Positions 5,732 to 16,123 of a stretch of DNA of 33,599 nt are shown piece by piece. Numbering within the stretch: the stretch's first letter is position 1; each line of letters starts with the position of its first letter. The notes under the pieces were generated by a model. It ran no database searches. It was not told the DNA's origin and saw only the letters and a list, made by a program, of their open reading frames with translations. Source of the DNA: a virus; the IMG/VR virus record IMGVR_UViG_3300032245_000445, positions 1-33,599 of that record. One strand, 5' to 3'. The translations under genes and the position numbers were made by a program.

Positions 5732-5951
5732 AAGGAACAAAATCGTAAAAAATTGTGACATAATTTGTCTAGTTTTTTATATTAAAAACGGGACAATAAG
5801 TAAAGCAATACCCTTACTTTGTAACATTTTACATGTTTTATTTGTTACTAAAACACATAAAAAAGTAACATTTGCGCTTATTTATTTTACTTTACGCCCA
5901 TAAAGTATCTTATGCGACACTTTTTGCGACACTTTTGTTCCTTTTATGACA
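5724..5951. repeat. 19-bp perfect inverted repeat pair 3' of the HNH gene
   Basis: TGTCATAAAAGGAACAAAA (5724-5742) overlaps the HNH stop codon. Its exact reverse complement lies at 5933-5951, with 190 bp between. The stretch between holds no gene. It contains TTGTGACATAATTTGTC, two GTAACATTT copies and a tandem 12-mer. The pair could form a long-range hairpin in the HNH transcript or mark ends of an inserted piece. Confidence 0.7.
5913..5936. repeat. Tandem 12-bp repeat
   Basis: TGCGACACTTTT occurs twice head to tail, and the second copy runs into the right arm of the 19-bp inverted repeat. Purpose unknown. Confidence 0.7.
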
Positions 5952-8626: not shown

Positions 8627-9958
8627 TTATTGGTTTTGAAAGGTTACTGTTTCTCCTATAAATCTTAATGGTATATTCTTAGTTACTCCATGTCTATTCT
8701 TTTCTACTTTACATATAACTAAAGAATCACTATTGTATTCAGTACCTCCTATAGTCACAGGCTCAGTCATTTCGTAATAAGATGGTCTCATCAACATGAT
8801 TACAATATCAGCATCTTGCTCTAAACTACCAGACTCTCTAAGGTCTGATAACTGAGGCATTTTATCTGCTCTTTCTTCTACTCTTCTAGAAAGTTGAGAT
8901 AAGGCGATAATAGGTACCTCCAACTCTTTTGCTAGGGCTTTTAAGCTTCGTGAGATAGTACTCACTTCTTGCTCTCTGTTTTGGTTTTGCTTACTATTAG
9001 CTGTCATTAGCTGCAAGTAGTCTATAAAAATTACTTTTATACCATACTTCTGCTTCATGACAGTAGCTTTAGCCCTGAGTTGTTGGATGCTAATACCGCC
9101 TGTATCTTCTATATAGATGGGTGACTGCAATATCTTATCATCAGCCTTCATAACCTCTACTTTTTCATACTCATTCATATTATTCGTTCTAAGGCGTTTT
9201 AAGGGCACTTGAGACACGATTGACTCTAACCTTTCAACTAACTGTTCGGAGCTCATTTCGAGGCTAAAAATGGCCGTAGGAACGCTATTTAGGATTGCTA
9301 GGTGATAAATACTTGAAAGCATCATGGCTGTCTTACCTGCTCCTGGTCTTGCAGCTACTATAATCATATCAGGTTTGCACCAACCTGCTATGGTATGGTT
9401 TAGTTCAGTAAATCCTGTATTAAACCCTAATAACTCACCTTTTTGAGCCATGTCTCTTTTTTCTATAACTGCTAATACTATATGGTCTATAGTTTTTTCG
9501 TAAATATTACCAAACTCTTGTAAACCTATAAGTTTACTATTTACTGTAGAAAGTAAATCTATAACTTCACTTTCCATATCTAAACACTCTACTTCTGAGT
9601 GCTTAAACAGAAAATAGGCTTGTCTTTTCTTATATAGCTCAACAGCCATAGCAATATGCGTATTAAGGTGGTTTGTACGAACTATACTGTCTGTTAGTTT
9701 TGATAGGTAGTAAGCACCACCGACTTCGCTTAATGATTGTTCATTAGACATCATTTGAGCTACTGTTGTTATGTCAATCGCAATATTACGATTGTACATA
9801 TCATTTAAAGTTCTGAATATACGCTGGTGTTTAAGGTCATAAAATACCTCTTCTTTAAGCATACCAATGACTAATGGTATTACATTCTTATCTATTAATA
9901 ATGAGCCAAGTATATTTTGCTCAAGTTCTATGTTTTTTGGTAATACGACTGCTTCCAT
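8627..9958 (-). CDS. dnaB: Replicative DNA helicase, DnaB family
   Basis: There are 443 residues, full length for the family. The N-terminal domain (about 1-150) starts ELEQNILGSLLID, the DnaB signature. The RecA-like C-terminal domain has Walker A ARPGAGKT (203-210), FSLEMSSEQL, Walker B VIFIDYLQL (309-317, Asp313), ALSQLSR (352-358) and LSDLRESGSLEQDAD (370-384). It unwinds the fork as a hexamer and recruits primase and host polymerase. The ATG overlaps the stop of the winged-helix replication gene, so loader-like protein and helicase are made together. Confidence 0.96.
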   Translation of the reverse strand: MEAVVLPKNIELEQNILGSLLIDKNVIPLVIGMLKEEVFYDLKHQRIFRTLNDMYNRNIAIDITTVAQMMSNEQSLSEVGGAYYLSKLTDSIVRTNHLNTHIAMAVELYKKRQAYFLFKHSEVECLDMESEVIDLLSTVNSKLIGLQEFGNIYEKTIDHIVLAVIEKRDMAQKGELLGFNTGFTELNHTIAGWCKPDMIIVAARPGAGKTAMMLSSIYHLAILNSVPTAIFSLEMSSEQLVERLESIVSQVPLKRLRTNNMNEYEKVEVMKADDKILQSPIYIEDTGGISIQQLRAKATVMKQKYGIKVIFIDYLQLMTANSKQNQNREQEVSTISRSLKALAKELEVPIIALSQLSRRVEERADKMPQLSDLRESGSLEQDADIVIMLMRPSYYEMTEPVTIGGTEYNSDSLVICKVEKNRHGVTKNIPLRFIGETVTFQNQ

Positions 9959-10587
9959 TATTTAAGGGTTATTTTAGGTTTTTCGTTTGTTATTGGTTGG
10001 AAGTTTTTAGAGTTCTTTTTCCATGTTCTAACTACAGCTTTCCAATCTTTAATTTTGTTTTTTCCGTAAGTCCATCCTCTAGCATCATTCCAATCACAGA
10101 AATATTCCCCATCTAAATTAAAGTCAATAGATTTTGCATAAATATTAACTTCTTCAGGTGTAGGTTTATTAAATGTATTTTTAGATGTTTTTTTAATTGT
10201 ATTACTATATGGTATAGGTGTTGCATTTTCGTTACTTCCATTTTGCAAATCTGCAATATCCTTGTTGCAATTCTGCAAAAATGATTTCTCATCTACAAAA
10301 GCATACCAACAAGTTCTATCATATCCACTTTTATTATAATTTTCCCTTAATAAAACCTTTTGTTCAACTAAAGAATCTAATATTCTTTTCATTTTATGTT
10401 CGTTCCAATAGGGGAATATTTCACTAAAAGCTTTATATGTATTATAAGTCCAAGTACGTTCATTGTAAAAATGCTTTCTATTAGCCAAGTTTTTAGTTAT
10501 CCAAAACTGCAAGTTATTAATAACTATAGCTTCTTCAATCCCATATTTTAATGCGTAATCTGTGTTAAAGTGATGCTCCATCTTCAT
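9958..10587 (-). CDS. Winged-helix replication protein, helicase-loader-like
   Basis: There are 209 residues. Residues about 1-110 look like the winged-helix region of phage replication proteins: HFNTDYALKYGIEEAIVINN, FSEIFPYWNEHKMKRILDSL, YDRTCWYAF. A polar linker (NGSNENATPIPYSNTIKKTS) follows. The C-terminal part has DWNDARGWTYGKNKIKDWKA and VRTWKKN, a motif at the ends of DnaD-like and replisome-organiser proteins. Being directly before dnaB, it probably binds the origin and loads the helicase. An alternative start is Met3. Confidence 0.75.
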   Translation of the reverse strand: MKMEHHFNTDYALKYGIEEAIVINNLQFWITKNLANRKHFYNERTWTYNTYKAFSEIFPYWNEHKMKRILDSLVEQKVLLRENYNKSGYDRTCWYAFVDEKSFLQNCNKDIADLQNGSNENATPIPYSNTIKKTSKNTFNKPTPEEVNIYAKSIDFNLDGEYFCDWNDARGWTYGKNKIKDWKAVVRTWKKNSKNFQPITNEKPKITLK

Positions 10588-10939
10588 TAATTATTTTGTC
10601 ACAAAATTTCTTTACTAAATTCAATTCATATGGATTCATCAATGCACAATAATTTACAATATTCTCAAATTCATATAATTGGTCATATTGAATTGTTCTA
10701 ATAGTCTCTTTTACATTTCTTTGAGCAATCGTATGTGCATAATGACAACTGGAACACAAGGTAAACATAGTTGAGTCATCATAATCCCAAATTTCCTTAC
10801 CAAACTCATAATAACTGTGATGAACATGAATTTCAGATTCTGAATCACCACAATGTGTACATTGAAAATTGTCTCTTTGTAAAATCTCCAATCTTTTACG
10901 CTGCCATCTTGGGTCAGCTAATTTTTGTTTATAACTCAT
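10565..10939 (-). CDS. HNH endonuclease (124 aa)
   Basis: The domain begins MSYKQKLADPRWQRKRLEIL, the usual start of this small HNH family. Then CTHC (27-30), IHVHHSYYEFG (His40/His41) and CSSCHYAH (62-69) give the zinc and catalytic ββα-Me site. The frame is open for 33 more codons upstream to a TTG, but that stretch reads as a structured leader, so I place the start at the ATG at 10939. It overlaps the winged-helix gene by 23 nt. Such nucleases nick or cut DNA and may be homing-type or involved in DNA processing. Confidence 0.85.
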   Translation of the reverse strand: MSYKQKLADPRWQRKRLEILQRDNFQCTHCGDSESEIHVHHSYYEFGKEIWDYDDSTMFTLCSSCHYAHTIAQRNVKETIRTIQYDQLYEFENIVNYCALMNPYELNLVKKFCDKIINEDGASL

Positions 10940-11033
10940 AAAATAAAAAATGGGCTTCAGACTTACAGGTAATGCGACTACCTGCTTATCCTCCACCCAG
11001 AAAAATTTATATTGGAATGTCGCATATTCCAAG
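10940..11033 (-). ncRNA. Candidate structured RNA or 5' leader with complementary hairpin loops
   Basis: Read on the minus strand from just after a -7 box, the RNA starts with a perfect 7-bp hairpin (TTGGAAT/ATTCCAA, 11032-11012) with loop ATGCGAC. After 27 nt comes a perfect 6-bp hairpin (CAGGTA/TACCTG, 10984-10966) with loop GTCGCAT. The two 7-nt loops are exact reverse complements, so a kissing interaction or dimer is possible. The second hairpin is enclosed by TGGG/CCCA (10999-10996 with 10954-10951), followed by six U residues. It could be a small RNA with a weak terminator or a leader controlling the HNH gene. Confidence 0.5.
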
Positions 11034-11035
11034 CA

Positions 11036-11043
11036 CAAAGTTA
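11036..11043 (-). promoter_or_regulatory. Bacteroidota -7 promoter box before the structured RNA
   Basis: TAACTTTG followed by T on the minus strand. Its TAA is the stop codon of the 75-residue gene, as at 1131. The predicted transcription start falls on or next to the first base of the first hairpin. A -33 TTTG is not evident. Confidence 0.5.
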
Positions 11044-11268
11044 CAAATCTTTTCGTATCCTGAAAGCCACCACTCTATCTTTAGTACCATCGTTAATCAG
11101 AAACTTCTTACGAGCTAATGGATTTAATCCGTCTCTTAAAGCCTGAGCATTAATCTTATACTTTCTAGCTGCTTTAGAAACCGAATCAAAATATACCTCT
11201 TCTCTTGTGTCTATATACACCATTCTTACTGGTATATTATTCTCTAATCCTTTAAGCTCTTTTGCCAT
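11041..11268 (-). CDS. Small NUMOD1-like or helix-turn-helix protein (75 aa)
   Basis: The central part, VYFDSVSKAARKYKINAQAL, has the F-x-S-x-x-x-A-A-x-x-x-x-I pattern of NUMOD1 and related helix-turn-helix modules found in homing nucleases, followed by DGLNPLARKKFLIND and VVAFR. Here the module stands alone without a nuclease domain, but an HNH gene lies directly downstream on the same strand. It may bind DNA for that nuclease or act as a regulator. The start overlaps a small membrane-protein gene by 17 nt. Confidence 0.65.
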   Translation of the reverse strand: MAKELKGLENNIPVRMVYIDTREEVYFDSVSKAARKYKINAQALRDGLNPLARKKFLINDGTKDRVVAFRIRKDL

Positions 11269-15842: not shown

Positions 15843-16123
15843 AATTAAGGTATTTAATTGGTTAATTGATAGAGTAAAGATATAAAACAATATCAAACAA
15901 ACAAAAGAAATATAAATAAATATTCATAATAAAATGTTAAAATAGATTAATGTTACAACATTGATTAGTTAATACCGATATACAATTACTTATATACTTA
16001 TATATTATATAAATGTACTTATATAATATATATATACATTATATAGTAACCAATGTACTTAGTTAATCAATATATATATTGGGTATATTATAATAAATTC
16101 TAACTATTAACCCTATAGATTGT

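Follow-up and report, generated by a model that had tools for sequence, protein, structure and literature searches.

What is the short stretch with two hairpins that lies directly before an HNH endonuclease gene in this viral DNA, and which gene does it serve? The window (the whole stretch of DNA that was analysed, 33,599 nt) contains this element on the minus strand, followed in the order of transcription by the HNH gene, a replication initiator gene and a DnaB-type helicase gene. The features discussed in the text are as follows.

11041..11268, minus strand: gene for a small conserved protein of 75 aa, upstream of the RNA (without a match in Pfam or PHROG)
11036..11043, minus strand: Bacteroidota-type -7 promoter box, TAACTTTG (direct reading)
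11033-10940, minus strand: whole element, about 95 nt, two hairpins
11012..11032, minus strand: hairpin 1, TTGGAAT-ATGCGAC-ATTCCAA, 7 bp and a 7-nt loop (direct reading and RNAfold)
11019..11025, minus strand: loop 1, ATGCGAC, the reverse complement of loop 2 (reading and covariation)
10951..10999, minus strand: hairpin 2, TGGGT...GCAGGTA-GTCGCAT-TACCTGT...GCCCA, terminator-like (reading and predicted fold)
10972..10978, minus strand: loop 2, GTCGCAT (reading and covariation)
10940..10950, minus strand: U-rich tract TTTTTTATTTT, right after hairpin 2 and abutting the next start codon (reading)
10565..10939, minus strand: HNH endonuclease gene, 124 aa, an optional insert between RNA and initiator (PHROG HNH families, best 1.6e-12)
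9958..10587, minus strand: replication initiation protein (phrog_11233, 5e-33)
8627..9958, minus strand: DnaB-like replicative helicase, same operon direction (Pfam DnaB_C, 1.6e-89)

Two hairpins with complementary loops

Read directly along the minus strand, the order of parts is TAACTTTG TGC TTGGAAT-ATGCGAC-ATTCCAA TATAAATTTTTC TGGGTGGAGGATAAGCAGGTA-GTCGCAT-TACCTGTAAGTCTGAAGCCCA TTTTTTATTTT ATG. The -7 box shares positions with the upstream gene's stop codon, 12 nt link hairpin 1 to hairpin 2, and the ATG of the HNH gene at 10939 adjoins the U tract. In the earlier note on this DNA the upstream gene was described as NUMOD1-like, a label for which neither Pfam nor PHROG offered a match. RNAfold predicted that both hairpins form (-28.8 kcal/mol, z = -3.7), and equal stability was reached in none of 200 shuffles. 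In the predicted fold, hairpin 2 comprises a base (UGGGU/GCCCA), an internal loop, the short helix GGAU/GUCU, another internal loop and an apical 7-bp stem (GCAGGUA/UACCUGU) capped by the 7-nt loop. The enclosure by TGGG/CCCA that had been noted earlier was retained in this fold, and the lone 6-bp hairpin thought to lie inside it was replaced by one long interrupted stem. A simple terminator scan of the window gave no call at hairpin 2, probably because of its internal loops. A kink-turn in the internal loop of this hairpin was considered and ruled out, since the columns concerned (47/77 and 45/79 of alignment A3) behave as ordinary covarying pairs.

We also scanned the whole window for two hairpins of at least 6 bp with loops of exactly 7 nt, the loops being fully complementary and the hairpins within 75 nt. 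The only match was the ATGCGAC/GTCGCAT pair, and none was obtained in 300 dinucleotide-preserving shuffles. The exact complementarity pointed out in the earlier note was thus confirmed. Elsewhere in the window, a non-coding stretch at 5880-5940 carries a third ATGCGAC along with a repeated GCGACACTTTT motif, and two adjacent long AT-only palindromes occupy 15988-16045 in the gap before the rightward genes.

Relatives and covariation

With the HNH protein as query, two IMG/VR contigs were obtained that have a 70% identical HNH and whose leader (TGCTAT-CCGTAC-ATAGCA followed by ...GTGTACGGAC...) differs from that of the window in its letters and has the same plan. A profile search yielded 80 HNH loci, about 27 of them bearing the element. 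An unbiased set was obtained by pattern scans of IMG/VR that were independent of HNH, and consisted of 84 type A, 25 type B (the type of the window) and 14 type C contigs; related phage contigs with the element number about 120. The -7 box that had been proposed before hairpin 1 proved to be general, as TAnnTTTG was present upstream of this hairpin in all of the 80 distinct elements of types A and B.

In an alignment of 15 distinct sequences, 97.2% of cells were paired and two-sided changes occurred at 18 of 26 pairs. With 20 sequences, the respective values were 97.9% and 22 of 26 (versus 12.4 in shuffles); no shuffle reached the observed pairing or covariation values in either set, and sliding the partner by 1-3 columns reduced pairing to 33-43%. 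Two-sided changes were seen at all 6 aligned pairs of hairpin 1 and in 6 of 7 columns of the loop-loop helix, and the stems of hairpin 2 were both kept and covarying. Three sequences scored as unpaired in the loop-loop helix contain CCGTAC/GTACGG, which is complementary in a 6-nt register shifted by the alignment. Thus, the compensatory changes in both stems and both loops that the earlier note had proposed to look for were present, and a search for homologues that had lost the stems or the complementarity found the opposite. Within the unbiased set, exact loop complementarity was observed in 121 of 123 instances, with 12 distinct loop pairs; of the two exceptions, one was truncated and the other had complementary loops on a short apical stem. 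One type A/B relative (L046, 33-122) has the loops swapped, with GTCGCAT as loop 1 and ATGCGAC as loop 2.

Element lengths fell in all three classes modulo 3, and therefore the open reading frame that crosses the element in the window is not conserved coding sequence. The position of hairpin 2 and the U tract was conserved among relatives, with the start codon directly after, and the distance from the element to that codon varied very little; the U tract was weak in some members (TATTTT, TCTTTT). These data strongly support the element as a genuine structured non-coding RNA, and the covariation supports a predicted pairing of loops 1 and 2 with each other. Hairpins arising by chance in an AT-rich intergenic stretch have the low complexity of the region in their favor and nothing else; the shuffled windows and the covariation rule this explanation out, and we assign it a negligible probability.

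A sequence-unrelated version and other HNH leaders

Type C elements, which occur in other phages, have no recognizable sequence similarity to types A and B and share the same design. They combine a TATAGT box of sigma70-like type with a hairpin 1 that has a bulge and a hairpin 2 of the form CCCCTGAAG..CTTCAGGGG TTTTTT, with complementary 7-nt loops (GGACTAG, GTACGAG, GGTCGAG and GGACAAG, and GGTTCAG in MW202710). In this type, 98.6% of cells were paired, and two-sided changes were found at 16 of 41 pairs, including 4 of 7 in the loop-loop helix. The distance between the two loops is 47 nt in the window and about 54 nt in type C. We estimate that the two type C arms, of approximately 18-19 layers and joined by an 8-nt linker, would need a sharp kink for an intramolecular contact, which would otherwise be intermolecular; such a kink could come from a 3-nt bulge that is conserved in hairpin 1.

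Leaders of HNH genes outside types A-C were also analyzed. In 8 of 40 cases, an upstream segment was complementary at p<0.05 to the loop that caps the last long hairpin. In a new set of HNH leaders, 9 of 64 showed such complementarity (binomial p = 0.004) versus 2 of 150 control windows; the combined p-value of this set, 0.11, was not significant, and one of the nine (L232) lies on the contig of L046, the type A/B relative. The greater than expected frequency of apical-loop complementarity in these leaders is therefore taken as a lead only. Complementary segments of 7-10 nt were seen just upstream of HNH in L017, L020, L041, L056, L057, L058, L062, L066, L261, L266, L298 and L313, and it is possible that these leaders represent further RNA families of the same design.

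Distribution

Neither the whole window nor representatives of types A, B and C matched any Rfam 15 model at the curated gathering threshold, and loose thresholds returned only matches at chance level. Our covariance model matched in 1 of 395 sampled genomes of the phylum Bacteroidota, which indicates a phage element. Among known phages whose initiators are related (epsilon15, TL-2011b, Tyrion, Olaya, Rac ydaU and others), most have hardly any space or none ahead of the initiator gene, and inspection of the larger gaps by eye revealed no such element. The literature covered, mostly open-access papers, contained no matching HNH-linked or replication-linked kissing RNA in phages. The proposal of the earlier note that this is a new structured RNA is upheld by the covarying loop complementarity and the lack of an Rfam match.

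The constant downstream partner is a replication initiator

The order in the window (RNA, HNH, initiator, DnaB) places the HNH gene next to the RNA, and control of this gene by a leader had been one of the options raised at the start. However, HNH was the next open reading frame in only 33 of 122 elements of the unbiased set; the other 89 were followed by something else. Where the family was checked, these non-HNH frames either were inserts or had products in several mutually unrelated PHROG families, of replication initiators (phrog_2562, 1408, 2509, 26426/678 and 428/270) or of primosomal proteins (9327/6451). We found other inserts with an initiator-like gene next, including GIY-YIG (L123, its Pfam match below the curated cut-off), MUG113/T5orf172 (L165) and small open reading frames (L196, L199). 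Thus, the constant downstream partner of the RNA is the replication initiator, not HNH.

L203 and L192 form an occupied/empty pair. The two align upstream as far as the end of the RNA, after which about 400 bp of HNH precede the initiator in the occupied contig; the insertion point of HNH is precisely the junction of the RNA and the initiator ATG. The RNA is identical in the two over 114 of 114 positions and the upstream flank is 64% identical; besides constraint, co-conversion in the course of homing may account for the identity over these 114 nt. We take the HNH gene to be an insert of the homing type and not the functional partner of the RNA. Its 124-aa product had no Pfam match, and its PHROG matches were of HNH type only. 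The idea that RNA and HNH travel as one mobile cassette was dropped when HNH-less copies were found. The HNH, GIY-YIG and MUG113/T5orf172 genes (L203 vs L192; L123, 6639-6995; L165, 1012-1530) share the RNA/initiator junction, which appears as a homing-endonuclease hot spot. On the other side of the RNA, the upstream gene encodes a winged-helix HTH_39 protein in the type A contig L087 and, by a weak match, in the type C contig L202.

HEARO RNAs, a family included in Rfam, and omega RNAs are found upstream of IscB/IsrB genes with an HNH domain. The position of our element directly upstream of an HNH gene, and the several other phage HNH genes preceded by hairpins with loop complementarity, could likewise suggest that the RNA assists the HNH protein as cofactor or guide. 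However, the gene is here inserted and dispensable, the RNA is unchanged with or without it, is about 95 nt long and matched no Rfam model. A cofactor or guide role is largely refuted by the HNH-less copies, and we consider it highly improbable.

The uncatalogued, strongly conserved kissing-loop RNA heads a DNA-replication operon. Its location at a replication module, and the fact that loops 1 and 2 form inverted repeats on DNA, raised the question of whether an initiator or regulator might bind these repeats at a replication origin, the hairpins being secondary. Against such a DNA site, each repeat exactly fills a hairpin loop, the stems covary independently, a promoter box precedes and a U tract follows, and the loop spacing differs by type; this explanation is very improbable.

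A possible attenuator leader

The predicted promoter, hairpin 2 and the U tract have the layout of an attenuator leader. With the promoter box on one side and the terminator-like hairpin 2 and its U tract at the start codon on the other, a transcript from this promoter would have to pass hairpin 2 to express the initiator. The reading that we prefer, with a probability of about 0.5, is a promoter-to-terminator leader of the attenuator type, in which loop-loop contact would set the amount of transcription entering the replication operon. Transcription would start at the element's own promoter, immediately 5' of hairpin 1; most transcripts would end at hairpin 2 and build up as a short RNA, and only the remainder would extend to the genes for the initiator and helicase. 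Contact between the loops, either within one molecule or between a finished and a nascent RNA, may alter the frequency of termination at hairpin 2, and the dose of the RNA would in this way feed back on replication. The weak U tract in some members and the silent terminator scan at hairpin 2 count against this model, as does the lack of an antisense TAnnTTTG box in the 120 nt downstream of 79 elements.

A further point against it is that the downstream replication genes lack homology among themselves, so that the RNA may have a function independent of the next gene. For example, it could be a free-standing small RNA, which like a dimerising RNA had been an option in the earlier note. Such an RNA could work in trans, with host or phage RNAs or RNA polymerase as its target, or serve as a scaffold for proteins, the transcription of the operon starting elsewhere or reading through. 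The element is a complete promoter-to-U-tract unit, its 5' hairpin, located where transcription is predicted to start, would shield it from decay, and the RNA was 100% identical between phages whose flanks were 64% identical; these features and the unrelated initiators are consistent with such a role. However, the loop 7-mers were not consistently enriched elsewhere in carrier phages (a twofold excess of ATGCGAC appears to be due to coding sequence common to related phages), and a role in cis is favored by the distance to the next start codon, which varies very little. We therefore view a trans-acting RNA as unlikely, if worth keeping in mind.

A more doubtful possibility is a self-antisense device. 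Each RNA carries both kissing partners, and finished copies might bind nascent leaders of the same phage genome, so that the replication operon would be turned off with increasing copy number, the variable loop pairs acting as specificity types. If so, loop types would decide interference among co-infecting phages, as incompatibility types do among plasmids, with no antisense transcript involved. For this promoter type, an antisense TAnnTTTG box was found inside the element in 5 of 79 cases and within 120 nt downstream in 0 of 79.

It has been reported that the put RNA of phage HK022 forms two stem-loops just after an early promoter and acts on polymerase over a distance (PMC9378689). Our element is also a phage RNA with two stem-loops right after a promoter box, from a predicted transcript start, and its size (about 70-95 nt) resembles that of putL (PMC9378689), which would suit a nascent RNA that binds RNA polymerase and renders it resistant to later terminators. 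Unlike put, for which no kissing loop is described (PMC9378689), the element has kissing loops and closes with a terminator-like hairpin and U tract; it also exists in two sequence-unrelated versions. We regard a put-like action as quite improbable.

Relationship to other systems

The attenuator-type reading has its closest parallels in plasmids. In ColE1, RNA I and RNA II pair through 7-nt complementary loops and are two RNAs made from opposite strands. The phage element resembles them in what would be full-loop kissing of hairpins in replication control, and differs in being one RNA from one strand, with no indication of a primer function. IncI, IncB and IncL/M plasmids have a leader with a loop-loop pseudoknot before repZ/repA and an antisense RNAI, and the top-loop sequence sets specificity (PMC10724649). 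Similarly, the phage RNA precedes a replication initiator gene, either directly or behind an insert, and contains two structures with mutually pairing loops, the pairing being predicted from covariation. In contrast to these plasmids, both partners are located in one short promoter-to-U-tract RNA, in phages, translational control is not indicated, and the downstream search for a TAnnTTTG antisense promoter found none. Lacking the defining antisense RNA, it is not filed under plasmid rep-leader control despite what would be a similar working. Attenuators of the pT181 type combine an intrinsic-terminator hairpin in the rep 5' leader with an antisense RNA, an interaction that starts by kissing, and an antiterminator fold (PMC4878617). 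In the phage element, hairpin 2 with its U tract, conserved in position between the predicted promoter and the rep gene, may correspond to this terminator, and the predicted interaction would also involve loop-loop kissing. In pT181 the kissing partner is the separate antisense RNA; neither such an RNA nor an antiterminator fold was seen here.

Implications for phage replication

The control of phage replication operons is ascribed mainly to protein switches. An uncatalogued RNA with unusually clear loop-loop covariation, present on about 120 phage contigs in two sequence-unrelated versions ahead of replication initiators, offers a concrete RNA layer for phage DNA replication that is open to testing. 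It also provides 7-nt kissing pairs in several natural versions, and a genome site where several kinds of homing endonuclease settle.
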